This document shows, one piece after another, positions 34,972 through 51,769 of a stretch of 64,000 bases of DNA. The notes under the pieces were generated by a model, which ran no database searches, was not told where the DNA came from, and saw only the letters and a program-made list of their open reading frames with translations. The DNA lies in the NCBI RefSeq assembly GCF_030161595.1, contig NZ_BSUM01000001.1, positions 62,001-126,000 of the forward strand, read 5' to 3'. This DNA is from Litorihabitans aurantiacus (GTDB lineage Bacteria > Actinomycetota > Actinomycetes > Actinomycetales > Beutenbergiaceae). A program made the translations under genes and the position numbers. How positions within the stretch are numbered: position 1 is the stretch's first letter; the number at the start of each line of letters is the position of its first letter.

Positions 34972-34975
34972 GAGG

Positions 34976-35434: not shown

Positions 35435-35492
35435 CCCCGCATCGTGTCACGCGGGCCAGGCCGACGACCGTCAGGCCGCGCGCCGGCCACCG

Positions 35493-36248: not shown

Positions 36249-36976
36249 GCCCGGCTGCGCCGGGTGCGGAAGGCGATGAGCCCCGCTGCACCCACCGCCG
36301 CGATGGCCCCGACCCCCGCGAGCGGGGCCATCGACGTACCGGAGTCGGCGGTGCCGCCGCCGCCGGTCTCCAGGCCGCCGAGCGGCACCTGGGAGAGCTG
36401 ACCGCGCACCACGCCGGCGGCGTAGTCGACGGTGTGGGAGTCGCCGACGAAGCCGGCGGGGTTGGCCTCGATCTGCGCGAGCGTGAAGCCCTCGCCGGTG
36501 TCGGCGCCCGCATCGTTCGTGATGCCTGTGGTGAAGGGTCCCTGCAGGCAGCCGGAGCTCGTGCGCGGGCCGTCGCCGACCGGCTCGGGGTTGGGGAACG
36601 CGATGCGCGGCGGTCCGGCCTGGCCGACGGCGGCCTCGTGGATGTGCGTGGCCGTCTTCGCGGGGCTCTGGTAGTCGCCCGTGACGCCCTCGAGGGTGAT
36701 GTCGTAGCAGATGATCTCGAGGTCGGAGTTGATCCGGAACGTGAACTCGCCCATCGCGCCGGGCTCGCCCGGAGTGGCGACGCCGTCGTTGTTGATGACC
36801 GCGTCGGGCGTGGCCCACACGGTGTAGGCGCTGGTGAAGCTGTCGGGCTCGGCGACCTCGGTGTCGGCGTTCGCGGGCGCGGCGGCCATCATGAGGCCGA
36901 CGGCGCCGGCGCTCGCGATGCCGATGAGCGCGGCGCGGCGGGGTGCGCGGCGGGGGGTGGGGGTCTGCGTCGTCAT
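36245..36976 (-). CDS. Secreted CHRD-domain protein with C-terminal membrane anchor
   Basis: 243 residues from ATG 36976. Signal peptide to about residue 37; a CHRD domain with 'GEFTFRINSDLEIICYDITLEGV' and 'ATHIHEAAVGQAGPPRIAFPNP'; then a Gly/Thr linker, one membrane helix ('MAPLAGVGAIAAVGAAGLIAF') and the basic tail RTRRSRA. This looks like a sorting signal, but a clear LPXTG is lacking; 'GLETGG' is the nearest match. Function of CHRD domains is unknown. It is the first gene of the operon with sortase F. Confidence 0.85.
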   Translation of the reverse strand: MTTQTPTPRRAPRRAALIGIASAGAVGLMMAAAPANADTEVAEPDSFTSAYTVWATPDAVINNDGVATPGEPGAMGEFTFRINSDLEIICYDITLEGVTGDYQSPAKTATHIHEAAVGQAGPPRIAFPNPEPVGDGPRTSSGCLQGPFTTGITNDAGADTGEGFTLAQIEANPAGFVGDSHTVDYAAGVVRGQLSQVPLGGLETGGGGTADSGTSMAPLAGVGAIAAVGAAGLIAFRTRRSRA

Positions 36977-37017
36977 GCTCGTACCTCTCGTGGCGGGGAG
37001 GGCGACGGTGCGCCTGG

Positions 37018-37030
37018 AACACCAGGTGTT
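37018..37030. promoter_or_regulatory. Palindrome in the divergent region before CHRD/sortase and ECF genes
   Basis: AACACC-A-GGTGTT, 42 nt before the CHRD ATG (minus). Next to it, 37063-37086, lies the most A-rich tract of the region. Could be a shared control site for the divergent operons. Confidence 0.4.
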
Positions 37031-37185
37031 ACGCAGGTCACGCCCGCCGTGTTCATCCCGTTCAGAAAAAAGTGCGAGAAAAATTTCCGACGGCGATCCG
37101 GGCCGGGCGATGAACGGGTCGCGGCCGCGCTCCGTAGACCCTGGTGGACGCCGAGGGGCGGCGTCGGTGAGCGGGGAGGTGGAGC

Positions 37186-37803
37186 ATGCTTACGATGACG
37201 CGACCGGTGCCGGTGCCAGCGACCAGGAGCGTGATCCCCCTGAGCGACCCACGTGAGGCCGCCCTGCCCGACGGCGTGGCACCCGGCCACTTCGACGTCG
37301 CCGACGCGTACGACCGGCACGGGGCCGAGCTGTTCGGGTTCACGCTGAACGCGGTGCGCGACCGCGGCACCGCCGAGGAGTGCGTGCAGGAGACGTTCCT
37401 GCGCGCGTGGCGCGCCCGGGACTCCTTCGACGCCGGCCGGGGCAGCCTGCGGACCTGGTTGTTCGCGATCGCGCGCAACGTCATCACCGACAGCTACCGC
37501 CGTGGCGCGCGTGTGCCCGTCCCGGTGGCGGACGAGGCGGTACCGGAGGTCGTCGCCCCCGGGCCGCACGACCCGGTCGAGCAGCTCGCGATGCTCCAGG
37601 CACTGGCGACGCTGACGCCGGAGCACCGCCGCGTCGTCGTCGCCATCCACGTGGTGGGCACGAGCTACGGCGACCTGTCGCAGGAGCTCGGCGTGCCCGT
37701 GGCGACACTGCGGACCCGGGCGTTCTACGGGCTCCGGGCGCTGCGGAAGCACCTCGAGGAGCAGGAGCGGTACGAGCAGCAGGAGCGGGAGGATGAGCGA
37801 TGA
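37186..37803 (+). CDS. ECF sigma factor (SigK-like)
   Basis: 205 residues from ATG 37186 (GGGGAGG upstream). Sigma-2: 'FGFTLNAVRDRGTAEECVQETFLRAWRARDSFDAGRGSLRTWLFAIARNVITDSYRRG'; sigma-4: 'LATLTPEHRRVVVAIHVVGTSYGDLSQELGVPVATLRTRAFYGLRALRKHL'. These are typical of RskA-controlled sigma factors. Its stop overlaps the anti-sigma start as ATGA. The divergent position next to the CHRD/sortase operon suggests, but does not show, that it controls surface-protein genes. Confidence 0.93.
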   Translation: MLTMTRPVPVPATRSVIPLSDPREAALPDGVAPGHFDVADAYDRHGAELFGFTLNAVRDRGTAEECVQETFLRAWRARDSFDAGRGSLRTWLFAIARNVITDSYRRGARVPVPVADEAVPEVVAPGPHDPVEQLAMLQALATLTPEHRRVVVAIHVVGTSYGDLSQELGVPVATLRTRAFYGLRALRKHLEEQERYEQQEREDER

Positions 37804-38561
37804 GCCAGGACCGGGAGATCGACGCGCGGACCGCCGCGCTGATCGCCGGTGCCCTCGCCGGCGACCTGGACGAGTCCGAGCGGGAGGCCCTGGCGGCACT
37901 CGCGGCGGCCGACCCCGCGGTCGGTGCCGAGCTCGAGGCGCTCGGGGGTGTCGCGGACGCGCTCGGGCGCGACGTGCCCGCCTGGCGCGAGCAGGCGCCG
38001 TCGGGCGACCTTCGTGAGCGGGTGGTGGGTGTCGGTGCGGTACCTGCCGAGGGGGCGACGGCGGTCGCGGCACGACCGGTGGCCGGGCGGGCGCGGCGCC
38101 GCACCGGCCCGTGGGCGCTCGCGGCCTGCGTCGCGGCGGGTGCCGCGCTCGCCGTCGGCGGCCTGCTGGGCGCCGGTTTCCGCGCCCCCGCCCCGGAGGC
38201 CTCACCGCCGCAGGGCCCGCCCGGGACGCTCGGCGCGGTCGAGGACGTCGATCTCGACGGCGGTCCCGCCGCCGTCGACGGCGCCAGCATCGACGCCGTG
38301 CTCGTGGCGCACACGTGGGGCACCGAGACGGTGCTCGAGGTCGAGGGGCTGCCGCCGGGGGAGGGCTACGACGTCGTCCTCATCGGGGACGACGGGCGCG
38401 AGTACGACTCCGGCTCGTTCCTCGGATCCGCCGTCGCGATCGACTGCCGGATGAACGCCGCCGTGATGCGGGCCGAGGTGGACCGGCTCGAGATCCGCCA
38501 GGCCGACGGCGGCGTGGTGACCGCGGCGGCGCTGCCCGAGGCGGTCGACGACCGCGGGTGA
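37800..38561 (+). CDS. RskA-type membrane anti-sigma factor
   Basis: 253 residues from ATG 37800. N-terminal helical sigma-binding part ('TAALIAGALAGDLDESEREALAALAAADPAVGAELEALGGVADALGRDVP'), one membrane helix ('WALAACVAAGAALAVGGLLGAGF', about residues 103-126), and an extracellular beta domain ('AHTWGTETVLEVEGLPPGEGYDVVLIGDDGREYDSGSFLGS') typical of RskA C-terminal domains. No zinc motif. It should hold the upstream sigma factor inactive until cleaved at the membrane. Confidence 0.88.
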   Translation: MSQDREIDARTAALIAGALAGDLDESEREALAALAAADPAVGAELEALGGVADALGRDVPAWREQAPSGDLRERVVGVGAVPAEGATAVAARPVAGRARRRTGPWALAACVAAGAALAVGGLLGAGFRAPAPEASPPQGPPGTLGAVEDVDLDGGPAAVDGASIDAVLVAHTWGTETVLEVEGLPPGEGYDVVLIGDDGREYDSGSFLGSAVAIDCRMNAAVMRAEVDRLEIRQADGGVVTAAALPEAVDDRG

Positions 38562-38597
38562 GTCGCGGCGTCCGGCCGGCTGTGTCGGCCGAGGGGA

Positions 38598-39107
38598 TCA
38601 GCCCAGGTAGATCGGTCCGCTGAAGCCGCCACTGCCGTCGCGCTCGTCCGCGCCCCCGGACGGGGTGCGGGGCGGCTCAGGCGCCTCCTCGGGGTCGGCC
38701 GTGCCGGACCAGTCCTGCAGCCGCTGGACGATCTCGGCCATGGTCGGCTCGTCGAACCGGGGCAGCTCGATCGTGCCGTCGGTCGTGTCGATGAGTACCT
38801 GGCTGGACCAGGTGGGGCGACCGGGGACGTCGGTGCGGACGGCGAGGATCGCGGTGCGGTCGATCGTGCGCGGGCGGAGGCGACGTCGCAGGACCATCGC
38901 GTCGGGGGTGACGACGAGGGCCGTGGTGGTGCGGGCGTGGACGAGCCACGTGCCGGAGGCCATGACCACGGCGGCGACCGCCGCCGCCCAGTACCAGGGG
39001 AGGTCGAAGAAGGCACCGACCCATCGCGCGAGGATCGCGGTGTAGAGGAACAGCATCACGTACAGCCACCGGGGCTGTGGCTGCTGCCGCGCGATCACCT
39101 CGCTCAT
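38598..39107 (-). CDS. Membrane protein with PH-like cytosolic domain
   Basis: 169 residues from ATG 39107. Two membrane segments near the N-terminus ('WLYVMLFLYTAILARWVGAFF' and 'WYWAAAVAAVVMASGTWLVH') are followed by a PH-like beta region 'TTALVVTPDAMVLRRRLRPRTIDRTAILAVRTDVPGRPTWSSQVLIDTTDGTIELPRFDEPTMAEIVQRLQDW' and a disordered tail. The layout is common in actinobacterial membrane proteins of unknown role. Confidence 0.75.
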   Translation of the reverse strand: MSEVIARQQPQPRWLYVMLFLYTAILARWVGAFFDLPWYWAAAVAAVVMASGTWLVHARTTTALVVTPDAMVLRRRLRPRTIDRTAILAVRTDVPGRPTWSSQVLIDTTDGTIELPRFDEPTMAEIVQRLQDWSGTADPEEAPEPPRTPSGGADERDGSGGFSGPIYLG

Positions 39108-39183
39108 CCGCCCACGCTAGGGGGCTCCGGCCGGGCGCGCGAGACGTGGGACGCACCGCGCCGGACTCTGGTTCACTCGACGG

Positions 39184-40146
39184 ATGCGACGGGTCCTGGT
39201 GCTGGGTGGAACGGCATGGCTCGGTCGGGCGATCGTCCGCCAGCTGGTGGCCGGGGGTGACGACGTGGTCTGCCTGGCCCGGGGTGAGTCGGGCGAGGTG
39301 CCGGACGGTGCCCGGCTCGTGGCGGCCGACCGGCGATCACCGGGCGCCTACGACGACGTGCGCGGCGACTGGGACGAGGTCGTCGAGCTGGCCTACGAGC
39401 CCGATCTCGTGGGTCCGGCGGTCGAGGCGCTCGCCGAGCGGGCCGCGCACTGGACCCTCGTCTCCTCGGTCTCGGTCTACCGGGGTCACGGCACGGTCGG
39501 CGCCGACGAGTCGGCGGACGTCGTCGAACCCGCCGACCTGGCGGCCTACCCCGACGCCAAGGTCGCCGCCGAGCGCGTCACCGCGCGCCACCTCGACGGG
39601 CGCCTCCTCGTCGCGCGTCCCGGCCTGATCGTCGGCCCCGGCGATCCGAGCGACCGGTTCGGGTACTGGTCGGCGCGCCTGGCCCGCGGCGGCGACGTCC
39701 TCGTCCCGCGGATGTCGGGGCGTCACGTCCAGGTGATCGACGTCTCCGACCTCGCCGCCTGGCTCGCCGACGCCGGGCGCACAGGCCTGGCGGGGGTGGT
39801 CGACGCCGTCGGGCACGCCGACCCGATGGCCGACCTCCTGCGCGTGGTGAGTGAGGCGACCGGGCACCGCGGGGCGCTGGTCGAGGCGGACGACGAGGCG
39901 CTGCTCGCGCACGACGTGCGGTACTGGGCCGGTCCGCGCTCGCTCCCGCTGTGGCTGCCGCTCGCGGACGCCGGCTTCGCCCGGCGGTCCGGCGCGAGGT
40001 TCCGCGCCTCCGGCGGGAGGCTGCGGCCGCTGGGCGAGACCGTGCGGCGCACCCTCGCGGACGAGGTCGCCCGCGGGATCGATCGCGACCGACGCTCCGG
40101 GCTGACTCCGGCGCAGGAGGCGGAGGTCCTCAGCGCCCTGGGGTGA
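39184..40146 (+). CDS. NAD-dependent epimerase/dehydratase family protein
   Basis: 320 residues from ATG 39184. Rossmann motif in 'RVLVLGGTAWLGRAIVRQLVAGGDDV' (GGxxxLG), 'SSVSVY' with catalytic Ser/Tyr region and 'YPDAKVAAERV' where the Lys of an extended-SDR active site is expected, then 'ARPGLIVGPGDPSDRFGYW'. This is a reductase of the extended SDR group; the substrate cannot be named. Its 3' end overlaps the convergent NUDIX gene by 17 bp. Confidence 0.87.
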   Translation: MRRVLVLGGTAWLGRAIVRQLVAGGDDVVCLARGESGEVPDGARLVAADRRSPGAYDDVRGDWDEVVELAYEPDLVGPAVEALAERAAHWTLVSSVSVYRGHGTVGADESADVVEPADLAAYPDAKVAAERVTARHLDGRLLVARPGLIVGPGDPSDRFGYWSARLARGGDVLVPRMSGRHVQVIDVSDLAAWLADAGRTGLAGVVDAVGHADPMADLLRVVSEATGHRGALVEADDEALLAHDVRYWAGPRSLPLWLPLADAGFARRSGARFRASGGRLRPLGETVRRTLADEVARGIDRDRRSGLTPAQEAEVLSALG

Positions 40147-40558
40147 GGGGCACCAGCGCGAGCAGGTGCAGCGCCGTCAGCGGCGCGAGCGGCAGCTCGT
40201 GGGCCTGCGCGGGCGTGACCCACACGGCGTCGTCGATCTCGGCGGCCGGGGCGACGGCGTCGACCTCCTGCGGCGTCAGGCGGACCGCCCACGCGTGGGC
40301 GAGCACACCGTGCCCGGGCTCGTTCGCGGCGTCGGCCGTGAACGAGCCGAGCGGCGCCAACCGGTCGACGTCGACCGTCAGCCCCAGCTCCTCCGCGACC
40401 TCCCGCACGAGCGCGCGGTCCGGGCGCTCGCCGTCGTCCGGCTTGCCTCCCGGCTGCATGTAGGCGGTGGTGCCGCGCTTACGCACGAGCAGGACGCGGC
40501 CGGCGCCGTCGTGCAGCACGCCGGCGGCCACGACGATCGTGCGCGCCGGGGTGCTCAC
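40130..40558 (-). CDS. NUDIX hydrolase
   Basis: 142 residues from GTG 40558. The Nudix box is complete: 'GGKPDDGERPDRALVREVAEELGL' (G-x5-E-x7-REVxEExGx). 'MQPGG' before the box is typical of bacterial MutT-like proteins that remove nucleoside diphosphate derivatives. The start overlaps the lipoprotein stop by four bases (GTGA). Confidence 0.92.
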   Translation of the reverse strand: MSTPARTIVVAAGVLHDGAGRVLLVRKRGTTAYMQPGGKPDDGERPDRALVREVAEELGLTVDVDRLAPLGSFTADAANEPGHGVLAHAWAVRLTPQEVDAVAPAAEIDDAVWVTPAQAHELPLAPLTALHLLALVPLTPGR

Positions 40559-41274
40559 CCGTCGTGACGGCTGCGGATCCCGACCGTGATCAGGCCGGCG
40601 ACGGCGAGCGCCACGAGGATCCCGGCGCCCCACGCCAGGCCGGTCCAGATCCAGTCGGGGAACGCCGAGGAGGTCGCCGAGGCGGTCGCGTCCAACGTCA
40701 GCGGGGTGTCGTAGGTGGTGGTCCAGGTGACGGTCGTGCCGTCGACCTCGGCGAGCTCGGCGCTCCCGCGCACCTCCTCGATCACGCCGGGGAACGTCAG
40801 GGAGACGCGCACGGTGGACTCGGGAGCGCCGGGTCGCGGCTCGCCCTCGGCGGCGGGGGCCGGGACGTCGGACTGCGTGCTCACGTCGATCACGCCGGAG
40901 ACGACGAAGTCGTCGCCGTCGCGCGTGATGAGCGGGGTGCCGCCGAGCGCGAGGTCGGTGATCGGGACGGCGTCGAGCTCGAGCGACGTGCCGTACCAGC
41001 CGGGCTCGGGGCTGACCGCTGCGGCGGTGACGCCGGTGCGGTCGCGCAGGCCGGGGAGCGCCCGCGTCTCGATGGCCGTGACCTGCCCGACCACGGCCTG
41101 CTGGGCGGCCTCGCTCTCGTCGGCGAGCTGACCGAGGATCAGGATGTCGCCGGTCACGGTGTTGGCGCGCGAGACGGTCAGATCGGCGTCCGTGCGGACG
41201 CATCCGGTCAGCGCGACGAGGGCGACGACGGCGGCCAGGGCGGCGGTGATCCCACGGATCCGAGGCCTGTGCAT
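40555..41274 (-). CDS. LppM-like lipoprotein with C-terminal membrane helix
   Basis: 239 residues from ATG 41274. Lipobox in 'VALVALTGC' (Cys about residue 24). The mature part 'DADLTVSRANTVTGDILILGQLADE' and 'STVRVSLTFPGVIEEVRGSAELAEVDGTTVTWTTTY' matches the LppM domain of actinobacteria. A membrane helix ('WTGLAWGAGILVALAVAGLITVGI') lies at the C-terminus, so both ends are membrane-linked. LppM is a surface lipoprotein in mycobacteria; function here is inferred only by family. Confidence 0.85.
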   Translation of the reverse strand: MHRPRIRGITAALAAVVALVALTGCVRTDADLTVSRANTVTGDILILGQLADESEAAQQAVVGQVTAIETRALPGLRDRTGVTAAAVSPEPGWYGTSLELDAVPITDLALGGTPLITRDGDDFVVSGVIDVSTQSDVPAPAAEGEPRPGAPESTVRVSLTFPGVIEEVRGSAELAEVDGTTVTWTTTYDTPLTLDATASATSSAFPDWIWTGLAWGAGILVALAVAGLITVGIRSRHDG

Positions 41275-41353
41275 GACCGAATCGTGACACAACGGTGGGA
41301 CGCCGGGCACGTCCACACGCGGGCTGGGACGCCTGCCGTCGGGGTCGAGCAGG

Positions 41354-41374
41354 GTTGAGCGGAATAGACTCAAC
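41354..41374. promoter_or_regulatory. HAIR-like HspR operator before clpB
   Basis: GTTGAGC-N7-ACTCAAC, matching the HAIR consensus CTTGAGT-N7-ACTCAAG in arm length, spacing and 11 of 14 arm bases. It lies 50 nt before the GTG start of clpB, a known HspR target in actinobacteria. Confidence 0.8.
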
Positions 41375-41423
41375 TTCGACCCGGTTGACCTGAGCACCAG
41401 ACGATCCGTGCCGGGAGGACACC

Positions 41424-44030
41424 GTGAACGACAAGCTGACGACCAGGTCGCAGGAGGCGGTGGCCGCCGCGCTCGGCCGTGCCACGCGGGCGGGCAACCC
41501 CCATCTCGAACCCGTCCACCTGCTGTCCGCGCTGCTGGAGCAGGCCGACGGGATCGCCGTCGCGCTCCTGACCGCGCAGGGGACCGATCTGGGGGAGGTC
41601 GCCCGCCGGGCCGACGGCGTCGCGGCGACCCTGCCCGGGGCGCGCGGCGCCACGACGGCGCAGCCGCAGCCCTCGCGCGCTCTCCTCGCCGTCGTCTCCC
41701 AGGCGGGCGAGGAGGCCCGTGCGCTCGGCGACGACTACGTCTCGACCGAGCACCTGCTGCTCGCGCTGGCCGCCGACACCGGCAGCGCGGGCGAGATCCT
41801 GCGCTCGGCCGGGACGTCGCGCGACGCGCTCGTCGCCGCGCTGCCGTCGGTGCGTCAGGGGCGCGTCACGTCACCCGACCCCGAGGGGACGTTCCAGGCG
41901 CTCGACAAGTACGGCCAGGACCTCACCGCCCGCGCCCGCGAGGGGCGCATCGACCCCGTGATCGGGCGCGACTCCGAGATCCGGCGCGTGGTGCAGGTGC
42001 TCTCGCGCCGCACCAAGAACAACCCGGTGCTCATCGGTGAGCCGGGCGTCGGCAAGACGGCGGTCGTCGAGGGGCTGGCGCAGCGGATCGTCGACGGCGA
42101 CGTGCCCGAGTCCCTGCGCGGCAAGCGCCTGATCTCGCTCGACCTCGGCTCGATGATCGCCGGCGCGAAGTACCGCGGCGAGTTCGAGGAGCGGCTCAAG
42201 GCCGTGCTCGAGGAGATCCGGGGGAGCGACGGCGAGGTCGTCACGTTCATCGACGAGCTGCACACGGTCGTGGGCGCCGGCGCGAGCGAGGGCGCGATGG
42301 ACGCCTCCAACATGCTCAAGCCGATGCTCGCGCGCGGTGAGCTGCGCATGATCGGTGCCACGACTCTCGACGAGTTCCGCGAGAACATCGAGAAGGACCC
42401 CGCGCTCGAGCGGCGCTTCCAGCAGGTGTTCGTGGGGGAGCCCTCGGTCGAGGACACGGTGGCGATCCTGCGCGGGATCGCGCCGCGCTACGAGGCGCAC
42501 CACAAGGTCACGATCTCCGACGGCGCGCTCGTGGCCGCCGCGACGCTGTCCGACCGCTACATCACCGGCCGGCAGCTGCCCGACAAGGCGATCGACCTCG
42601 TGGACGAGGCCGCCTCGCGCCTGCGGATGGAGCTCGACTCCTCGCCGGTGGAGATCGACGTGCTGCGCCGCGCCGTCGACCGCCTGCGGATGGAGGAGGC
42701 CTACCTGTCCGAGGGTGGCGACAGCGACTCCCGGGACGAGGCGACCCTCGAGCGACTGGAGAAGCTGCGCCGCGACATCGCGGACCGTTCGGAGGAGCTC
42801 GCGGGCCTGACCGCGCGCTGGGAGGCGGAGAAGGCCGGGACGAACCGGGTCGGGGACCTGCGCGTGCGGCTCGACGAGCTGCGCACGGCCTACGACCGGG
42901 CGGTGCGCGAGGGCGACTACGACGCGGCGGGGCGACTCGCGAACGGGGAGATCCCCGCCGTCGAGCGGGAGATCGCCGACGCGGAGCTCGAGGAGGGGGC
43001 GGAGGTGCCCTCCGCCGTCGCGCCGATGATCGCGGACAAGGTCGGCACGGACGAGATCGCCGAGGTCGTGGCGATGTGGACCGGCATCCCGGCCGGCCGG
43101 CTGCTCGAGGGCGAGACCGCGAAGCTCCTGCGGATGGAGGACGTGCTCGGCGAGCGGCTGATCGGCCAGCGCGCCGCCGTCGCCGCCGTGTCCGACGCCG
43201 TGCGGCGCTCGCGGGCGGGCATCGCCGATCCCGACCGGCCGACCGGGTCGTTCCTGTTCCTCGGGCCGACGGGTGTCGGCAAGACCGAGCTCGCGAAGTC
43301 GCTCGCGGACTTCCTGTTCGACGACGAGCGCGCGATGGTGCGGATCGACATGTCGGAGTACGGCGAGAAGCACTCGGTGGCGCGGCTGGTCGGGGCGCCT
43401 CCGGGGTACGTGGGGTACGAGGAGGGCGGGCAGCTCACCGAGGCCGTGCGGCGCCGGCCGTACTCGGTCGTGCTGCTGGACGAGGTCGAGAAGGCGCACC
43501 CGGAGGTCTTCGACGTGCTGCTGCAGGTGCTCGACGACGGGCGGCTCACCGACGGGCAGGGGCGCACGGTCGACTTCCGCAACGTGATCCTCGTGCTGAC
43601 GTCCAACCTCGGGTCGCACGCCCTCGTGGACCCGACGCTGGAGGAGGAGGCGAGGCGCGCCGTCGTGATGGACGCGGTGCGACTCGCGTTCCGGCCGGAG
43701 TTCCTCAACCGGCTGGACGACGTCGTGATCTTCGACGCACTCTCGCTGGAGGAGCTCGGCTCGATCGTGGACCTGCAGCTGGACCGGCTCGGGGCGCGGC
43801 TGGCGGACCGCCGGCTGCGCCTGGAGGTCACGCCCGCGGCGCGCGAGTGGCTGGCGCTCGAGGGCTACGACCCGGCGTACGGGGCGCGGCCGCTGCGCCG
43901 GCTGGTGCAGCGCTCGATCGGCGACCCGCTGGCCCGGATGCTGCTGGGCGGGCAGGTGCTCGACGGTGGCGCGGTGCGCGTGGACCGTGCGCCCGACGAC
44001 GCCGAGGGCCTCACCCTGACGCCCGCCTGA
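41424..44030 (+). CDS. clpB: ATP-dependent disaggregase ClpB
   Basis: 868 residues from GTG 41424 (GGGAGGA upstream). Repeat N-domain (1-150), first AAA+ module with Walker A GEPGVGKT (about 203-211) and Walker B '[10 protein letters not shown]', a middle coiled-coil (about 410-520), second AAA+ with GPTGVGKT (about 613-620) and '[38 protein letters not shown]', then the C-terminal small domain. It works with DnaK to rescue aggregated proteins after heat stress. Control by HspR is likely from the HAIR-like site upstream. Confidence 0.97.
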
Positions 44031-44060
44031 GCGGCGCCCCCGCGAGGACCCACCCCTTCG

Positions 44061-44214
44061 CGAGAGCTTTGCTGACGTACCGCGAGAGGATTGCCGACCC
44101 TCCCCGAGAGGACTGGTGACGTACCGCGAGAGGATTGCCGACCCTTCCCGAGAGGACTGCTGACGTACCCCGAGAGCATTGGCGACCTACCGCGAGAGGT
44201 CTGGCGACGTCCGC
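44061..44214 (+). repeat. Tandem array of seven 22-bp units (array A)
   Basis: Units start at 44061, 44083, 44105, 44127, 44149, 44171 and 44193, each exactly 22 bp, with core CGAGAGGATTGCCGAC and an end that alternates between GTACCG-like and CCTCCC-like, giving a 44-bp super-period. The last unit is degenerate. It begins 31 nt after the clpB stop. 22 is not a multiple of three and no coding frame is kept. Confidence 0.9.
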
Positions 44215-44459
44215 GGCGGCCCTCGCTGACAGCGGCTGCGTCTCGCTGTGAGCGGCCAGCGGCGCACAGGCGGCTTCGCGTCAGGTATAGCCGCAGGTCA
44301 GGGGGTCGGACATATCGGACCAGGTGCCGCCAGCCGCTGTGGGCGAGGGCCAGCCGCTCCGAGCGAGATCGAGGGCGCGGTGTGCGCCCGGCCGGACCGC
44401 CTCGTCGCCCCTCCCCGGGTGCGTCCTCGAGGGACTGGGGCAGCTCGGCGGCTACCTCG
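44215..44459. other. Non-coding spacer between mirrored arrays
   Basis: 245 bp with no credible gene. It contains a 10-bp inverted repeat (ACAGCGGCTG at 44229-44238 with CAGCCGCTGT at 44331-44340), and its right junction with array B forms the palindrome TACCTCGAGGTA (44453-44464). A transcript through both arrays would bring this segment into a large loop. Confidence 0.5.
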
Positions 44460-44635
44460 AGGTATGTCGGTAATCCGCTCGCGGAGGGGCAGTAGAGCTC
44501 TCGCGGTAGGTCGGCGATCCTCTCGCGATACGTCAGCGATCCACTCGGGGTACGTCGGCAATCTTCTCGGGGAGGGTCGGCAATCCTCTCGGGGTACGTC
44601 GACAATCCTCTCGGGGAGGGTCCGCAAAGCTCTCG
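44460..44635 (-). repeat. Tandem array of eight 22-bp units (array B), mirror image of array A
   Basis: Units end in CTCG at 44481, 44503, 44525, 44547, 44569, 44591, 44613 and 44635, an unbroken 22-bp period. On the minus strand they read with the array A core; the unit at 44570-44591 is the exact complement of the one at 44083-44104. Half of a ninth unit (CGGTAGGTTCG) continues to within 4 nt of the start codon at 44651. Confidence 0.9.
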
Positions 44636-44650
44636 CGGTAGGTTCGCTGG

Positions 44651-45544
44651 ATGCGTCTGAGCACCGTCATCCTGCCCGTGCACGCCCGCGCCGAGGCCGT
44701 CGCCCGCTGGCGCCGGGCCGAGGACCTCGGGTTCGCGACGGCCTACACCTACGACCACCTCTCCTGGCGCACCTTCCGCGACGGACCCTGGTACGACGCG
44801 CTCCTCACCCTGGCGCAGGCGGCCGCCGTGACCGAGCGGATGCGCCTCGGCACCCTCGTCACGACGCCGAACTTCCGCCACCCCGTCACCCTCGCCAAGG
44901 ACGTCATGACGCTCGACGACGTCTCGGGCGGACGCGTCACGCTCGGCCTCGGCGCGGGCACGGACGGGTTCGACGCCGCCGCGCTCGGCCTGCCGGCCCT
45001 CACCCCGCGACAGCGCGCCGACCGGTTCGCCGAGCTGGTCGACCACCTCGACCGCCTGCTGACCACGCCGGACGTCACGGTCGACGGCGAGTACTTCTCG
45101 GCGCACGAAGCGCGCACGATCCCGGGGTGCGTGCAGCGCCCGCGGGTGCCGTTCGCCGTCGCCGCGACCGGGCCGCGCGGCCTGAAGCTCGCCGCCCGGT
45201 ACGGCCAGGCGTGGGTCACGACCGGCGACCCGGCCACCTTCGAGGACGGCACCGCCGCGCAGTCGCGTGCGGCGATCGCGCGGCAGATGGAACGGCTGGA
45301 GGCGGCCTGCGCCGCCGAGAACCGCGATCCCGCGAGCATCGAACGGGTGCTGCTCACGGGATTCCTGCCCGAGGACGCGTTCGCCTCGGTCGACGCCTTC
45401 GAGGACTTCGCGCACGCGCACGCCGCGCTCGGCATCACCGAGATCGTGGTCCACGACCCGATCCCCGACACGCAGTTCGCCCTCGACGAGACGATCTACG
45501 CAGGGATCGCGGAGCTCGCCCCGACGCTCGCCGCGCTCGACTGA
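44651..45544 (+). CDS. LLM-class (F420-dependent type) oxidoreductase
   Basis: 297 residues from ATG 44651. Luciferase-like barrel motifs: 'RLSTVILPVHARAEAVARWRRAEDLGFATAYTYDHLSW', 'TERMRLGTLVTTPNFRHPVTLAKDVMTLDDVSGGRVTLGLGAG' and 'PFAVAATGPRGLKLAARYGQAWVTTG'. Family members in actinobacteria mostly use F420; the cofactor is inferred and the substrate unknown. No classical Shine-Dalgarno is seen: the only purine-rich stretch, GGTAGG, is part of a half repeat unit from array B. Confidence 0.9.
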   Translation: MRLSTVILPVHARAEAVARWRRAEDLGFATAYTYDHLSWRTFRDGPWYDALLTLAQAAAVTERMRLGTLVTTPNFRHPVTLAKDVMTLDDVSGGRVTLGLGAGTDGFDAAALGLPALTPRQRADRFAELVDHLDRLLTTPDVTVDGEYFSAHEARTIPGCVQRPRVPFAVAATGPRGLKLAARYGQAWVTTGDPATFEDGTAAQSRAAIARQMERLEAACAAENRDPASIERVLLTGFLPEDAFASVDAFEDFAHAHAALGITEIVVHDPIPDTQFALDETIYAGIAELAPTLAALD

Positions 45545-45580
45545 GGTCGACCTCTCGCCGGCCGACGTCGGCCCGGTACG

Positions 45581-45612
45581 GGTCTGGGTCGGTCACGTGC
45601 CGACCCCGGACC
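45581..45612. terminator. Hairpin between convergent genes
   Basis: GGGTCGG/CCGACCC stem extended by GGTC/GACC after a bulge, loop TCACGTG, between the stops at 45544 (plus) and 45646 (minus). A perfect palindrome GGCCGACGTCGGCC lies just upstream at 45559-45572. Confidence 0.5.
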
Positions 45613-45645
45613 GTGCCCGCCCGAGGACACGGATCCCAGGTGTGC

Positions 45646-46695
45646 TCAGCCGACCGTGAGGTCCCCCGCGATCGCGCTCCCGGTGAGCTCGACGTCCTCC
45701 CCGTACAGGACGCAGGAGACCTGCCGGTCGCCGTCGTCCCAGTCGGAGATGTCGGGGAACCAGCCACCGAAGCTCAGGTCGTCGGTGATGGTCCCCGCGG
45801 GGATCTCGGAGACGACCGCCTCGTAGCAGACGTCGTTCGCCTCGGTGATGATCGCGTCCTCACCGGGGTAGGCGCCGCCGTCGGGCACGTAGGTGTGGAC
45901 GACCTCGGCCGCGTGGGGCTCCGAGCACGGCACCTGCGTGTACTCGCTCGCCAGGTCGTCGAACGCCTCCAGGCAGTTGCCCGGGGCGAGGTCGGCGGCC
46001 TCGACGCTGCGCTCCGAGTCGACGTCGCCCGGGTTGTCGCTCAGCACCGGCGGTCCGAAGACGCCGCTGAACAGGCGCAGCAGGACGAACGCGACGATCG
46101 CCAGGATCGACACCGAACCGACCACGACGGCGACCGTTCCCGGCACGCGCGAGGCGCGGGCCCGCTTGGCGCGGGTCAGGGAGATGACTCCGAGGACGAT
46201 GCCGAGCGGTCCGAGCACGACCCCGAGACCGGCGCCCAGCCACCCCATCCCCGCACCGGTGCTCGGCGTCGGTCGCGGCGGCTGCTGCGGCGGCGGGCCC
46301 TGCGGCGGCGCGCCCTGCGGCGAGTAGCCCGGCTGCGCGTAGCCCTGCTGGGCGGCGGGCTGCTGGTACGCGTAGCCCTGCGCGGCCGCACCCGGCTGCG
46401 GCTGGGACGGCTGGCCGTACGGCTGTGCCGGGGGCTGCTGGGGGTACCCCTGCGCGGGCGCCCCCTGCTGCGGGTGGGACGGCTGGCCGTACGGCTGTGC
46501 TCGGGGCTGCTGGGGCTGCTGGGGCTGCTGGGGCTGCTGGGGCTGCTGGGGGTAGCTCTGCGCGGGAGCGCCCTGCTGCGGATACCCCGGACCGGACCCG
46601 CCCGGCTGCCCGTACCCGGGGTGCGGCTCACCGCCCGGCTGCGCCGCGGACGGCCCCGGACGCGACGGGTCGGGCGGGCCCCAGGGGTCGGTCAT
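45646..46695 (-). CDS. DUF4190/septum-formation family membrane protein
   Basis: 349 residues from ATG 46695. The first 150 residues are disordered and rich in Pro, Gln, Gly and Tyr, with a tandem QQP repeat (about residues 50-65). Then come two membrane helices of DUF4190 type ('[30 protein letters not shown]' and '[22 protein letters not shown]') and an extracellular 'septum formation' domain with conserved Cys: 'GNCLEAF', '[15 protein letters not shown]', 'VCYEAV', 'DRQVSCVLY'. Likely a cell-envelope or division-linked protein. Confidence 0.87.
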
Positions 46696-46733
46696 GCCCC
46701 GAAACTACACGGATCGCGACGGCGAGCGCCGGG

Positions 46734-47738
46734 TCAGCCCAGCAGGTCCTCCGTGAGCGGGGCGCCGGCCGAGCGGACGAGGCAGCTCGCGGTGCGCTGA
46801 CCCTCGTCCCAGCCGCCCGGTGCCGGCACGAGGGGCCAGGCGAGGTGGGCGGCGTCGTCGAGGCCGCGGTCGGCGAGCTCGCCGTCGCAGCGCTCGGTCG
46901 CATCGGCCAGGATCGCCTCCGGGCCGGGGTAGGTCGCGTCCTCGACCTCCCAGGTCGTGAGCACCTGCGCGGCGTGCGGGGTCGCGCACGGCACGAGCGT
47001 GAGCTCGCCGACCTCCTGCTGCACGGGCAGCGCCTCGACGCAGTTGCCCGCCGCCGTGAGCGACGGGTGCACGACCCGAGGCTCGGCGACGTCGCCCGGC
47101 TCCGCCACACCCCCGGACGCGCCGAACCCACCGAGGGCAGCCACGATCGCGACCACCACCCACGCGATGCTGCCGACCGCGCCGAGCACGATTCCGGTCA
47201 CGGCGATCCGCGGGCTCCGCAGCCACGACCGCGTGGTCCGTCGGAGCCCGACGAGTCCCAGCACGAGCGCCACCGGGCCCGTGGCGAGCACACCGGTCAC
47301 GACGGCGGCCACGGAGACCGCGTCGAGCGGCGCCTGCGTGAGCTGCGGCATCGCGAACGACGGGCCCGCCCCGGCCGACTGCCCCGCCATCTCCGACGGT
47401 GGCGACGAGAACGCCCCGGCCGGCTGCCCCGGTGACGACGGCGGCGCACCCGCCCCGGTCGGACCGCTCCCGTACGGCGACGGCGCCGGCCACGCAGGCT
47501 GCTGCGGCCCGGCCGGCGGCACGGCACCCGGCGCCGAGGGCGGGGCCGCGCCCGGCGCCGAGGGCGGGGGCGCCGCGGCGTACGGGCTGCGCGAGGACCC
47601 CGGGTCCCACGCCGTGGGGGCGGGGCCACCGCCCGCACCGGGCCCGGCCTGGGGGATGGTCGGGACGGCGGGCACCTCCGGCGTGCCGGACGCGCCCGGG
47701 TCGCCCGAGGAGCCGTGTCCGCCCGGTGGCCGCGCCAT
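46734..47738 (-). CDS. Septum-formation family membrane protein, paralogue of its neighbour
   Basis: 334 residues from ATG 47738. Same design as the adjacent gene: a Pro/Gly/Ala/Ser-rich disordered N-terminus, two membrane helices ('SVAAVVTGVLATGPVALVLGLVGLRRTTRSW' and 'IAVTGIVLGAVGSIAWVVVAIVAALGGF'), then an extracellular Cys-containing domain ('GNCVEALPVQQEVGELTLVPCATPHAAQVL', 'RCDGEL', 'RTASCLV'). The two genes probably arose by duplication. Its start overlaps the xthA stop by one base. Confidence 0.85.
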   Translation of the reverse strand: MARPPGGHGSSGDPGASGTPEVPAVPTIPQAGPGAGGGPAPTAWDPGSSRSPYAAAPPPSAPGAAPPSAPGAVPPAGPQQPAWPAPSPYGSGPTGAGAPPSSPGQPAGAFSSPPSEMAGQSAGAGPSFAMPQLTQAPLDAVSVAAVVTGVLATGPVALVLGLVGLRRTTRSWLRSPRIAVTGIVLGAVGSIAWVVVAIVAALGGFGASGGVAEPGDVAEPRVVHPSLTAAGNCVEALPVQQEVGELTLVPCATPHAAQVLTTWEVEDATYPGPEAILADATERCDGELADRGLDDAAHLAWPLVPAPGGWDEGQRTASCLVRSAGAPLTEDLLG

Positions 47739-48517
47739 CAGTCGGCCAGCTCCACGATCACGGGGGCGTGGTCGCTCGCGCCCTTGCCCTTGCGCTCCTC
47801 GCGGTCGATGCGCGCACCGGCGAGCCGCGCCGTCGCGCTCTCGTTGCCGAGGGCGAGGTCGATGCGCATGCCCTGGCGCTTCGGGAACCGCAGCTGCGTG
47901 TAGTCCCAGTACGTGTACTCGCCGGGCGTGAACTGCCGCGTCAGCTCGGTGAAACCGGTGTCCTCGATCGCGGTCAGCGCGTCGCGCTCCGGCTCCGTCA
48001 CGTGCGTGGAGCCCTCGAAGAACGCGCGGTCCCACACGTCCTCGTCGCGCGGGGCGATGTTCCAGTCACCGGTGAGCAGGGTGGGGGTCGACGACGTCGC
48101 CCACTCCTGCGCACTGTCGCGGAGCGCGCCGAGCCAGTCGAGCTTGTAGGTGTAGTGCGGGTCCTCGATCGTGCGGCCGTTCGGGACGTACAGGCTCCAG
48201 ACCCGCACCCCGCCGCAGGTCGCCCCGATCGCGCGCGCCTCGGCCGCGAGCGGCTCGCCCCAGCCGGGCTGCTGCGGGAAGGAGGCCGCCACGTCCTCGA
48301 GCCCCACGCGGGAGGCGATCGCGACGCCGTTCCACTGGCTGAGACCGTGGTGCGCGACCTCGTACCCGATCGCCTCGAACGGCATCACGGGGAACTGCTC
48401 GTCCTTGCACTTGGTCTCCTGCATCGCCAGCACGTCCACGCCGCTGCGCTCCAGGAACGCCGTCACGCGATCGACGCGGGCGCGGACGGAGTTGACGTTC
48501 CAGGTGGCGATCAGCAT
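47738..48517 (-). CDS. xthA: Exodeoxyribonuclease III
   Basis: 259 residues from ATG 48517. AP endonuclease/3' exonuclease of the EEP fold: 'IATWNVNSVRARVDRV', 'LAMQETKCKDEQFP' (metal Glu), 'VWSLYVPNGRTIEDPHYTYKLDWL', 'LTGDWNIAPRDEDVWD' (Asp/Asn) and 'RIDLALGNESA...GASDHAPVIVEL' (His). It repairs abasic sites in base-excision repair. Confidence 0.95.
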   Translation of the reverse strand: MLIATWNVNSVRARVDRVTAFLERSGVDVLAMQETKCKDEQFPVMPFEAIGYEVAHHGLSQWNGVAIASRVGLEDVAASFPQQPGWGEPLAAEARAIGATCGGVRVWSLYVPNGRTIEDPHYTYKLDWLGALRDSAQEWATSSTPTLLTGDWNIAPRDEDVWDRAFFEGSTHVTEPERDALTAIEDTGFTELTRQFTPGEYTYWDYTQLRFPKRQGMRIDLALGNESATARLAGARIDREERKGKGASDHAPVIVELAD

Positions 48518-48610
48518 GGCTCCAACGTACCGGCGTGCACCGACTTGACGGCGGGCGCGACGGCGGACCCGCCCCGCCCGCCACCTCGTGCGCCGCGCGA
48601 TGATGGGGCG

Positions 48611-49390
48611 ATGGGAACCGCTCTGATCACCGGTGCCAGCGCCGGGCTGGGCCGCGAGCTCGCGTGGCAGCTCGCGGAGGACGGCGAGGACCTCGTGCTC
48701 GTCGCGCGCGACGAGGCGCGGCTCGAGACGCTCGCGGCGCAGCTGCGGGCGAGCGCGGGGGTCGAGGTCGAGGTGCTGCCGGCCGACCTCTCGGTGGACG
48801 ACGACGTCGCGCGCGTGGCCGCCCGCCTGCGCGAGGGCGGCGAGGGCAGCGAGGGCAGCGAGGACAGGGCCGTCGACCTCCTCGTGAACAACGCGGGCTT
48901 CGGCGTCGCGCGCCCGTTCGTGCGCAGCGACCTCGACTCGGAGATCGCGGCGCTCGACGTCATGGTCCGCGCGGTGCTCGTGCTGACGCGGGCCGCCGTC
49001 GACTCGATGGTCCCGCGCGGTCACGGCGCGATCCTCAACGTCGGATCGGTCGCGGCGCTCACGCTGTCCGGCACCTACGCCGCGCACAAGGCGTGGCTGA
49101 ACACCTTCACGCAGGGGCTCGCGCACCAGCTGCGCAGCACCGGCGTGACGGCGACCGTCGTGAACCCCGGGTTCACCCGGACCGAGTTCCACGCCCGGCT
49201 CGGGATGGCGAAGCGCCCGTACCCGGCCGCGGCCTGGCTCGAGGCGGACAGCGTGGTCGCGGACGCCCTCGAGGCGGTGCGTCGGGGTCGCGTGGAGGTC
49301 ACGCCGTCGCTGCGCTACCGCGCGATCTCGGCGCTCCTGCGGGCCCTGCCCACCGCCGTCGTGCGCGGGCTGGGGAGCCACCGGCGATGA
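48611..49390 (+). CDS. Short-chain dehydrogenase/reductase
   Basis: 259 residues from ATG 48611. NADP-binding TGxxxGxG in 'ALITGASAGLGRELAWQLAEDG', 'NNAGFG', catalytic Ser in 'LNVGSVAAL', and Tyr/Lys in 'GTYAAHKAWLNTFTQGLA'. The 'ADLS' and C-terminal 'RYRAISALLRALPTAVVRGL' fit the DltE/YqjQ-like SDRs of actinobacteria. A Gly/Ser/Glu repeat (EGGEGSEGSED) interrupts the loop around residue 78. It overlaps the YchJ gene as ATGA. Confidence 0.92.
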   Translation: MGTALITGASAGLGRELAWQLAEDGEDLVLVARDEARLETLAAQLRASAGVEVEVLPADLSVDDDVARVAARLREGGEGSEGSEDRAVDLLVNNAGFGVARPFVRSDLDSEIAALDVMVRAVLVLTRAAVDSMVPRGHGAILNVGSVAALTLSGTYAAHKAWLNTFTQGLAHQLRSTGVTATVVNPGFTRTEFHARLGMAKRPYPAAAWLEADSVVADALEAVRRGRVEVTPSLRYRAISALLRALPTAVVRGLGSHRR

Positions 49391-49797
49391 CGGGTCCGAG
49401 CGAGGATCGCGACGGCGAGCGCTGCCCCTGCCGCAGCCGTCGCTCGTTCGCGGTGTGCTGCGCTCCGTACCTGGCGGGGGAGGCGACGCCGTCGACCGCC
49501 GAGGCGCTCATGCGCTCGCGCTTCGCCGCGTACGCGCGCCGCGACGTCGCGCACCTGACGCGCACCTGGCACCCGAGCACGCGGCCGGCCGAGCTCGACC
49601 TGGACGACGACGTCGCGTGGGTCGGGCTGCAGGTCGTCGACACCGCCGGGGGCGGGCCGGACGACGTGACGGGCACCGTGCACTTCCGGGCGAGCTGGCG
49701 CGGTCGCGCCGAGCGCGGGGTGCTGGAGGAGGTCAGCACCTTCGTGCGGCCGGGCGGGACGTGGCTGTACGTCGACGGCGACGTCCGCCGCCGCTGA
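49387..49797 (+). CDS. YchJ family protein with SEC-C motif
   Basis: 136 residues from ATG 49387. N-terminal SEC-C-like Cys motif 'RCPCRSRRSFAVCCAPYLAGEATPSTAEALMRSRFAAYARRD', then an NTF2-like domain with 'TWHPSTRP', 'GLQVVDTAGG', 'GTVHFRASW' and 'GTWLYVDGD'. The family is conserved but its activity is unknown. Coupled to the SDR. Confidence 0.93.
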   Translation: MTGPSEDRDGERCPCRSRRSFAVCCAPYLAGEATPSTAEALMRSRFAAYARRDVAHLTRTWHPSTRPAELDLDDDVAWVGLQVVDTAGGGPDDVTGTVHFRASWRGRAERGVLEEVSTFVRPGGTWLYVDGDVRRR

Positions 49798-49843
49798 CCG
49801 CACGCGTCGCCCCGCGCCCGCCACGATCCTCGGCAGGCCCCGC

Positions 49844-49898
49844 CGAGAACGCCGGGTGCTGCTCGGACGCGTCTGGCGAGCAGCAGGGAGCGTTCTCG
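49844..49898. repeat. Dispersed hairpin element, copy 2
   Basis: CGAGAACGC (49844-49852) pairs with GCGTTCTCG (49890-49898); after a 4-nt internal loop TGCTGCTCG-type arms add nine more pairs; loop about 11 nt. Lies between YchJ and pyrE, both plus strand. Confidence 0.85.
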
Positions 49899-49916
49899 AC
49901 GGACCGGCCGCCTCGT

Positions 49917-49969
49917 GAGAACGCCCGGTGCTGCTTCGGAAGCGTCTCCGAGCAGCGCCGAGCGTTCTC
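49917..49969. repeat. Dispersed hairpin element, copy 3
   Basis: GAGAACGC (49917-49924) pairs with GCGTTCTC (49962-49969), followed by inner pairing between CGGTGCTGC and GCAGCGCCG. It starts 19 nt after copy 2. The left arm matches the half copy at 23994-24013. Confidence 0.85.
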
Positions 49970-50060
49970 GACCAGGGGGAGGGTGCGCAACGTGGCGCGG
50001 GGAGCAGAACGGGCGGGCTGGGGAGGGGTGGGTCGCGGCGGGCCGATACGCTCGGGTTCC

Positions 50061-50642
50061 GTGAGCGCCACTGCCGACACCCCCAAGTCCCGACTCGCCG
50101 CCCTCGTGGCCGACCTCGCCGTCGTGCACGGCCGGGTCACCCTCGCCTCCGGGCGCGAGGCCGACTACTACGTCGACATGCGTCGCGCCACGCTGCACCA
50201 CGAGGCGGCGCCGCTCATCGGCCACCTGCTGCTGGACCGTCTCGAGGAGGAGGGCTTCGGGCCCCAGGAGATCGACGCCGTCGGCGGCCTCACGATGGGC
50301 GCCGACCCCGTCGCCGCCGCGATGCTGCACGCCGCCGCCTCGCGCGGGCTCGAGCTCGACGCGTTCGTGGTCCGCAAGTCCGCCAAGACGCACGGCATGG
50401 GCCGCCAGGTCGAGGGCCCCGACGTCGCGGGGAAGAAGGTCGTCGCGCTCGACGACACCTCGACCACCGGCGGCAGCGTGCTCCAGGCCGTGGAGGCGCT
50501 GCGGGCCGCGGGCGCCGAGGTCGTGGCGTGCGCCGTCGTCGTCGACCGCGACACGGGGGCGCGCGAGGCCGTGGCGCAGACCGGCCTGCCCTACCTGTGG
50601 ATCCTCGACACCGCCGACCTCGGGCTGCCCGCCACGCGCTGA
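50061..50642 (+). CDS. pyrE: Orotate phosphoribosyltransferase
   Basis: 193 residues from GTG 50061. It joins orotate to PRPP in de novo UMP synthesis. Signature parts: 'GRVTLASGREADYYVDMR', 'VGGLTMGADPVAAAML', 'FVVRKSAKTHGMGRQVEG' (catalytic Lys loop) and the PRPP motif 'VVALDDTSTTGGSVLQAVEAL'. It is preceded by the two hairpin elements. Confidence 0.96.
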   Translation: MSATADTPKSRLAALVADLAVVHGRVTLASGREADYYVDMRRATLHHEAAPLIGHLLLDRLEEEGFGPQEIDAVGGLTMGADPVAAAMLHAAASRGLELDAFVVRKSAKTHGMGRQVEGPDVAGKKVVALDDTSTTGGSVLQAVEALRAAGAEVVACAVVVDRDTGAREAVAQTGLPYLWILDTADLGLPATR

Positions 50643-50729
50643 CGAGCCCGACCACCGCACGACGACACCGCGCCGCACCACCCGCCCGAGCGCACCGCAC
50701 CACCCGCCCGACCCCGACCGAAGGCCCTC

Positions 50730-51758
50730 GTGACCTCCTCCTCGATCGACCGCTCCACCGACGCCGACCCCACCACGGCCAGCACGTCGCCCACACCCCC
50801 GCACGGGACCGCGACGGAGGCGGTCGACGAGGCCCCCGCCGTCGCCCGCGCCCGCTGGCGCGACGCGCCCGGCCTGGCCCTGCGGGGCGGCTTCGTCGGA
50901 GCCGCCGAGGGCGTGCCCGGCATCTCGGGCGGCACGGTCGCCCTCGTCGTGGGGCTCTTCGACCGGCTGATCGACGCGGCCGGGGCGCTCGTGCACGTGG
51001 CGCGCATCGCCGTCGGCGTCGTGCTGCGCCGGCGCAGCGGGGCCGACCTGCGCTCTGCGCTGGGCGAGATCGACTGGCGCTTCCTCGCCCCGGTCCTGGG
51101 CGGGATGGCGGTCGTGCTGCTGGCGACGCTCAGCGTCGTCGCGCCCCTTCTCGAGGCGCACCCGGTGCAGGTCAGCGCCGTCTTCTTCGGGATGATCGCC
51201 GTGTCGGTCCTCGTGCCGCTGGGCCTCGCGCCGCACCGGTTCCGCGTGCGTGACTACGCGCTGGCCGCGGTTGGCGCCGTCGCGGCGTTCACGCTGACCG
51301 GCCTGCCCGCGCTCGAGCTCGAGAGCCCGCCGCTGTGGCTGGTGTTCGTGGGCGCCGCCGTCGCCATCAACGCGCTCGTGGTTCCCGGTGTCTCGGGCTC
51401 GTTCGTGCTCCTCGCGCTCGGCCTGTACGTCCCGATCCAGCAGGCGCTCGCCTCGCGGGACCTCGCCTTCATCGGGGTGTTCATGCTGGGGGCCGCCGTC
51501 GGGCTCGGCTCGTTCGTGAAGGTGCTGCGCTGGCTGCTGCACCACCGCCGTCAGGCCACCATGGCCGTGCTGACGGGTCTCATGGTGGGATCGCTGCGCG
51601 CGCTGTGGCCGTGGCAGGACGGCACCGCGGTCGTCGCGCCTCCGAGCGGTGGCGAGCTCGCCGTCGCGATCGCCCTCGCGGTCGGGGGCGGCGCCGTCGT
51701 CGCCCTCGCGCTGTGGTGGGAGCACCGCCACGACAGCCCCGTTGTCGTGACCCCCTGA
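50730..51758 (+). CDS. DUF368 membrane protein (polyprenyl-phosphate transporter family)
   Basis: 342 residues from GTG 50730. An approximately 45-residue disordered start precedes eight to ten membrane segments. Two internal repeats of the family signature are clear: 'EGVPGISGGTVALVVGLFDRLI' and 'LVVPGVSGSFVLLALGLYVPI'. DUF368 proteins have been linked to recycling of undecaprenyl phosphate (PopT) in other bacteria; that role is taken from the family. It may be cotranscribed with pyrE and the methyltransferase. Confidence 0.92.
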   Translation: MTSSSIDRSTDADPTTASTSPTPPHGTATEAVDEAPAVARARWRDAPGLALRGGFVGAAEGVPGISGGTVALVVGLFDRLIDAAGALVHVARIAVGVVLRRRSGADLRSALGEIDWRFLAPVLGGMAVVLLATLSVVAPLLEAHPVQVSAVFFGMIAVSVLVPLGLAPHRFRVRDYALAAVGAVAAFTLTGLPALELESPPLWLVFVGAAVAINALVVPGVSGSFVLLALGLYVPIQQALASRDLAFIGVFMLGAAVGLGSFVKVLRWLLHHRRQATMAVLTGLMVGSLRALWPWQDGTAVVAPPSGGELAVAIALAVGGGAVVALALWWEHRHDSPVVVTP

Positions 51759-51769
51759 CCGGGCTCGCA

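Follow-up and report, generated by a model that had tools for sequence, protein, structure and literature searches.

The window, that is the whole stretch of 64,000 nucleotides analysed here, carries two mirrored arrays of 22-bp repeats between a clpB-like gene and a gene for an LLM-class oxidoreductase-like protein. The features of this block and of two further arrays in the window are as follows.

41424-44030, plus strand: clpB-like gene upstream (name assigned by eye on the basis of the sequence); stop 30 nt before array A
44061-44214, plus strand: array A, seven 22-bp units with the tail facing inward; the head unit, CGAGAGCTTTGC, lies at 44061
44215-44459: gene-free spacer, the site at which complete copies have the nuclease gene
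44222-44261, plus strand: nested arm of two 20-bp units CTCGCTGNNAGCGGC from another repeat family
44329-44367, minus strand: inverted partner of the nested 20-bp arm (families D4, I15)
44460-44635, minus strand: array B, 8 units of 22 bp, inverted relative to A; head at 44635, tail inward
44061-44635: whole element, 575 bp, not present at the orthologous clpB-LLM junction of a congener (G001)
44651-45544, plus strand: downstream gene, LLM-class oxidoreductase-like (named by eye); start 15 nt past the head of array B
33442-33547, plus strand: array of 21-bp units (second family) that immediately follows a stop codon; this site is empty in G001 (7 bp versus 118 bp)
34883-34969, minus strand: array of 4 units of 21-22 bp, at the stop of the gene 34976-35434

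The original prediction of mirrored arrays of seven (plus) and eight (minus) units with an exact 22-bp period proved correct: all 13 unit intervals (6/6 in array A, 7/7 in array B) are 22 bp, although the inner units of array B are degenerate. Both arrays are detected by TRF, which scores a period of 44 bp higher than one of 22 bp in array A (209 versus 144), and periods of 44 and 66 bp higher than 22 bp in array B (181 and 187 versus 152). Since the longer periods outscore 22 bp, the predicted alternation of linker ends, with its 44-bp super-period, is real, though partial in B. As predicted, the units abut at 22 bp without unique spacers, which rules out a CRISPR. An Rfam search over 33000-52000 returned only six matches, far under the gathering scores and none on the arrays, and an identity with an Rfam RNA family was therefore rejected.

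The spacer is gene-free, as had been proposed, and no remnant of a nuclease gene was found in 44215-44459; it is not empty, however, as it encloses the nested inverted 20-bp pair. This pair belongs to a third repeat family, also seen at another locus (L021, 3154-3321) and partly at L214. In a BLAST comparison, the nested-pair sequence of the spacer matches L021 at 71% over 177 bp (6e-17) and is similar to L214 as well. Elsewhere in the window, two small genes (34107-34882) lie between the inward-facing arrays at 33442 and 34883, and this gene pair is missing at the orthologous place of G001 (869 bp versus 30 bp). Around 49830-49990, another repeated inverted element (GAGAACGC...GTGCTGC) occurs twice in one intergenic stretch; by eye it is unrelated to the arrays.

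A repeat family scattered at gene ends

The block is a member of a repeat family that occurs at gene ends throughout its own genome (hereafter G000) and in relatives, among them two congeners (G001 and G002). A search of G000 with array A gives 51 matches at E <= 0.001, counting itself and array B, the best match at another locus having an E-value of 1.3e-38. A two-unit pattern has 86 matches in the same genome and its reversed control none. These two results exclude a chance origin of the family. Further arrays, the absence of which had been named beforehand as grounds for giving up the original prediction, were thus found by profile and pattern scans both in the genome and in its relatives. 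One strand carries 27 of the 86 matches and the opposite strand 59, with neighbouring units not being independent; the arrays may be biased by strand or replichore.

Scanning G000 with a weight matrix derived from the units reveals 48 arrays, each with 2-9 units, which fall into 35 regions; a second family in the same genome has 21-bp units. The array-bearing intergenic regions examined in this genome number 48, with eight further places matching by pattern. The spacing within the weight-matrix arrays is nearly constant (22 bp in 134 of 142 unit intervals) and is kept despite 310 substitutions in the 94 interior units. Three positions (G2, A3 and G4) are invariant in 94/94 interior units and G14 is found in 93/94, whereas the linkers vary. 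Head units favour CTTT (C7 in 28/48, T8 in 31/48), and C at position 10 is present in 18/48 tail units versus 19/94 interior units. These different base preferences of head and tail units indicate that the arrays have ends. The last unit mostly keeps the core and not the linker. The unit CGAGAGGATTGCCGACCCTCCC is not a palindrome and has no GTAG/CGTC-tagged palindromic form.

Convergent gene ends are preferred by the arrays. The 80 array regions of the three congeners comprise 42 tandem, 34 convergent and 4 divergent ones, against 112, 22 and 57 among 191 array-free regions (Fisher p = 1.5e-10 for convergent/divergent, array versus other regions). Most arrays run in the same direction as their head-side gene, namely 34/46 in G000 (two of the 48 arrays lack such a gene) and 31/42 in a second set, giving a binomial p of 8.5e-6 over both sets; of the 43 arrays of G001 and G002, one inside a predicted gene was left out. 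For codirectional arrays, the median gap from stop codon to array is 21 nt in 31 arrays of G000 and 11 nt in 34 arrays of G001, G002 and the 21-bp family of G000. Genes were called by a custom finder, which misses some genes and starts. Many of the exceptions in orientation are second arms of inverted pairs, and some are single arrays (L023, L026, L033, L035 and L041). At three loci (L210, L279 and L292) the array appears by eye directly behind a strong GC hairpin resembling an intrinsic terminator. The preference for gene ends, and the link with a nuclease described below, had been missed by the original prediction.

A three-unit pattern finds arrays in 6 of 24 genomes of the family, and its reversed control in none; in the other 18 the arrays are absent by this pattern only, because arrays with other units escape it. 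A relaxed pattern gives 30 three-unit matches in G001 and 143 in G002, and a stricter GAGAG pattern misses the arrays of these two congeners. Matches to the class-wide pattern occur in 5 of 394 genomes, of which only G000 and G691 look alike by eye, and matches to the stricter, order-wide pattern in 3 of 396. Beyond the family, arrays of like build were recognized by eye in Aeromicrobium terrae, a Propionibacteriaceae MAG, an Actinomycetes MAG and G691. Many of the matches listed from a wider contig scan fall in unrelated phyla and were taken for chance or coding repeats; six of its loci were inspected (L092, L093, L117, L130, L166, L170), and those of Streptomyces, Plantibacter and Coriobacteriaceae were left out. 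In A. terrae, inverted arrays of 7 and 6 units surround a carbonic-anhydrase-like gene (L130, 766-1580, by eye); at L117 the array begins at the stop codon itself. No partner gene was found by tblastn at the array loci outside the family, in stretches of up to 8 kb.

Comparison of the congeners reveals both gain or loss and sharing of arrays. The clpB-LLM gap measures 49 bp in G001, compared with the 30 and 15 bp that flank the block in G000, and in G002 it holds another gene. There are further empty sites in G001 (11 bp versus 136 bp; 7 bp versus 118 bp) and one in G002 (3 bp versus 93 bp). At the site of the array 34883-34969, G001 has three units of a different sequence. For at least 11 of the 34 array-bearing regions in the congeners G001 and G002 (7/15 and 4/19), G000 has an array at the orthologous place, a lower bound since the array set of G000 is incomplete. 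The unit sequence at these shared sites differs between species. One locus chosen for its orthology (L287) was left out of this count. Region L208 was not used in the analysis. Neither a target-site duplication, nor an excision product, nor a recent move was seen.

The array-flanked gene and its predicted product

In each of the three congeners, genes are found between inverted arrays, and these genes are related to one another. Close homologues of their 303-aa product (E < 1e-40) occur in G000, G001, G002, G003, G006 and G023, which among the 24 family genomes are exactly the six that are array-positive by pattern. No close homologue was found in the other 18, the best match there being 6.8e-14. 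This co-occurrence is suggestive rather than overwhelming, as it amounts to 4/10 by genus once kinship is allowed for.

All ten close copies found are flanked on both sides by inward-facing arrays of 21-22 bp units, which in eight copies lie within 300 bp on both sides. In two copies, a second one of G000 that is split by a stop and the truncated one of G001, the left array is about 560 bp away from the gene, with another small ORF in between; in the G006 copy the right-hand array reaches the contig end. The same 300-bp rule, applied as a demanding control to the 298 genes of array-centred regions, finds eight with arrays on either side, and three of these eight are this gene. At the loci of distant homologues, TRF finds CGAGR arrays in 0/24; at two of these loci (L332 and L334) the homologue was not re-found by tblastn. 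Tandem repeats of other sequence, with 18-23-bp units, lie near the distant homologues at L317, L324, L328 and L329 (in G010, G000 and G003), as short tandems on both sides at the first two and on one side at the last two. These are possibly further gene-repeat pairs.

The unit type differs from copy to copy. In G000, one type is CGAGAGGATTGCCGACCCTCCC (22 bp) and the other has 21 bp; the three gene copies of G002 have three unit types, and the two copies of G003 have two. For 99 of 109 dispersed arrays, the closest unit family is one that flanks the gene in the same genome (G000 42/47, G001 18/18, G002 21/21, G003 11/11, G006 5/10, G023 2/2), a number reached in 2 of 20000 label shuffles; the consensus lines compared are rough, because the units were cut out with a loose expression. 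This test required at least three units in G000-G002 and two in the other genomes, and left out five gene-bearing loci (L018, L211, L290, L284, L223). The block 44061-44635 is not among the mismatches, and the array at 34883 is. No correlation between unit similarity and protein similarity was detected over eight copies (Mantel r = 0.16; 1077 of 5000 shuffles).

One gene locus is common to G000, G001, G002, G023 and G006, and at least two more are common to genome pairs (L304/L305, and L319/L320 among molybdenum-cofactor genes). The gene loci are thus old and common between genomes, and the gene appears to be mostly inherited rather than hopping. No AbiEii toxin was found among ten neighbouring proteins from six of the ten loci, a subset of the neighbours; a PemK/MazF-like toxin gene lies beside L307. 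The 22 stretches matching the pattern in IMG/VR include no relative of the nuclease, and no relative was found in the phages searched. Among plasmids a single match turned up, at 32% over 27% of the query, and belongs to a Nonomuraea record.

The eight full-length members of the protein family align almost gap-free. Invariant are G196-E197-S198-W199, D229, E240-Y-D-G-R244, H247, D252 and D256, a set of residues that we take to resemble those of DUF559/Vsr-like nucleases. An NCBIfam search gave no real match. Pfam matches are weak, with the MTES_1575 nuclease family in 5/8 members, AbiEi_1 in 4/8 and AbiEi_4 in 3/8 (best 2.7e-6), and the AbiEi models of PADLOC match 8/8 members (best 5.6e-15). 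No relative was found by a sequence profile against the PDB. The AlphaFold2 model (pLDDT 76.9, pTM 0.59) matches the AbiEi structure 6y8q with a Foldseek E-value of 7.2e-5 and a Z-score of 7.7, in the range that can reflect a common arrangement. Its residues 192-296 superpose on the catalytic domain of I-Bth0305I (3r3p) with a Z-score of 9.9 and an rmsd of 2.6 over 94 of 97 residues, whereas the Foldseek E-value of this match is only 0.25. The protein is accordingly a predicted fusion of an AbiEi-type DNA-binding part and a homing-endonuclease-like domain of the I-Bth0305I/Vsr fold.

The binding site of AbiEi consists of two 23-bp repeats separated by 3 bp, and that of Rv2827c of four such repeats arranged in inverted pairs (PMC7319586). 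On this basis, one 21-22-bp unit for each AbiEi-like monomer is a reasonable assumption. The phased protein-binding platform put forward in the original prediction is therefore plausible, with a cognate protein that is predicted to be of AbiEi type.

Origin and role of the arrays

As the nuclease gene is flanked by array pairs, and as dispersed arrays match the gene-flanking arrays of their own genome, the block resembles a gene-less copy of an array-nuclease gene-array element, the arrays of which would be placed, lengthened and rewritten by cutting and repair. We give this reading a probability of about 0.6. Binding, cutting and movement are parts of it that we infer. Most likely, each unit would be the site of one protein monomer, and an array would load several monomers in register through their AbiEi part. 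The bound nuclease would then nick or cut DNA of a gene end or of an array, and repair from another copy would place, lengthen or rewrite the arrays. Cutting followed by repair would account for the placement at gene ends, for presence or absence between species and for the genome-wide change of unit type. The shared array sites (11/34) count against an element to the extent that they fit a host function too. Further points against it are the age of the gene loci, the failure to see a target-site duplication, an excision product or a recent move, the small number of inverted pairs in G000, the spacer with no remnant of the gene, the extra ORF in the split and the truncated copy, the uncorrelated unit and protein similarities, the 5/10 own-genome matches of G006, the weak Pfam and Foldseek matches, and the short tandems beside the distant homologues at L317 and L324.

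A more specific proposal, which we hold only tentatively, is that the AbiEi-homing-nuclease fusion cuts those arrays or gene ends that are unlike the arrays flanking its own gene, and that repair plants and rewrites arrays chromosome-wide. With its own arrays as the repair template, many array positions would persist between species while the units of a genome change together. If true, this would be a chromosomal, within-genome form of homing, acting on the recognition arrays and not on the gene.

The main rival is a host function at gene ends, which may coexist with the first reading. An AbiEi-type protein or another factor would use the arrays as a platform to block or insulate transcription, the arrays around its own gene would serve autoregulation, and mobility would not be needed. 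Arrays that start right past a stop codon and mostly point with transcription, the strong convergent bias, the sites kept across species though the unit changes, and the conserved core and spacing are all as expected for such a platform, and AbiEi proteins are described as autoregulators that bind 23-bp repeats (PMC7319586). The empty sites in congeners speak against it, as do the 18 family genomes (of 24) in which the array pattern finds nothing; besides, some arrays sit past a strong hairpin (L210, L279, L292), and a roadblock has no need of a nuclease domain. We consider this explanation rather unlikely.

The original prediction also noted that a transcript of the inverted arrays would fold into a long stem, and such a stem at the 3' end might act as an RNA hairpin or terminator. 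The arms A and B are indeed 76-83% complementary over 134-155 nt. Of the 23 inverted pairs, 20 have their tails inward and 14 have 7-20 bp between the arms, and the arms match well at L036, L038, L039, L212 and L278. Raw same-locus means exceed other-locus means in G000 (0.76 versus 0.64) and G002 (0.66 versus 0.60), in sets that mix unit families. However, the match between the two arms in the window (0.80) is no closer than that with arms of other loci (means 0.79 and 0.81), and the same holds for G001 (0.696 versus 0.698, 6 pairs). Many arrays also have no partner. In G000, 11 inverted pairs were seen among 82 arms. For arrays of at least three units, sense-strand folding does not exceed that of mononucleotide shuffles (mean z +0.13; antisense -1.9), and tail-side hairpins are not enriched, being found at 10% of 48 arrays and 10% of 136 other stops. 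Hairpin formation as the purpose of the arrays is thus not supported, given the equal match of unrelated arms in the window and in G001, and we regard it as improbable. By eye, the 21-bp units contain more G than C, and a Rho-type reading was dropped for this reason.

Open frames run through the arrays, but an origin as neutral tandem repeats or as decayed coding sequence of a repeat protein is scarcely credible and, for coding decay and a neutral microsatellite, ruled out by spacing and spread: the 22-bp period is not divisible by three, 48 intergenic arrays keep their exact spacing and their core although the linkers vary, and the same core recurs in other genera.

Comparison with known repeat systems

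Short dispersed repeats are common in bacteria, and their well-described gene-plus-repeat partnership is that with the RAYT transposases. The arrays resemble the REPIN/RAYT systems (REPtron, TIRtron) in being dispersed intergenic repeats, some of them in inverted doublets, with genome-specific matching, and in the enzyme gene being flanked by its own repeat family (on both sides in all ten close copies), with a different enzyme. This same layout, of intergenic repeats, inverted doublets and a gene flanked by its own repeats, is described in two REP/RAYT studies (PMC3116915, PMC3733652). That a RAYT (Y1 tyrosine) transposase moves the present arrays as REP/REPIN repeats is nonetheless hardly conceivable. 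The Y1_Tnp domain (PF01797) was found in only 1 of 24 family genomes (G005, which has no arrays by pattern) and in none of the six array genomes. The present enzyme is unrelated, with a predicted AbiEi-like and homing-endonuclease-like fold, and the units are tandem, non-palindromic and 21-22 bp long, number 2-9 per arm and have a gene-end polarity. With no such transposase found and a repeat that is no palindrome, the array-gene system is an analogue of REPIN/RAYT and not a member.

Likeness to the EDxHD homing endonuclease I-Bth0305I lies in the C-terminal domain, with its Vsr-like catalytic fold (in the predicted model only), and in the predicted tethering of a DNA-binding part to a nuclease part. 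We know of no EDxHD homing endonuclease that is flanked by its own dispersed arrays. Those described come mainly from phages (PMC3943268). The N-terminal part is similar to proteins of the AbiE type IV toxin-antitoxin systems (AbiEi, Rv2827c), relatives of which recognize 23-bp sites arranged as inverted pairs (PMC7319586); the present protein differs in its fused nuclease-like domain and the present system in its tens of arrays per genome.

BOX elements and MIRUs are modular intergenic repeats of variable copy number, some of them after stop codons, with units of about 45 and 51-101 bp, respectively. To our knowledge, neither has a repeat-flanked nuclease gene. No comparable system was found in the literature searched (open-licence PMC only). 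The gene-flanking array pairs point to a hitherto undescribed partnership of repeat and nuclease. A different class of enzyme appears to be tied to tandem recognition arrays at gene ends, the unit types being matched within each genome. If true, this would represent a new way for repeats to spread or to stay uniform and would assign a function to an AbiEi-nuclease fusion that has so far been poorly described; a single protein and a single 22-bp DNA would then be enough to test how dispersed repeats change in concert.
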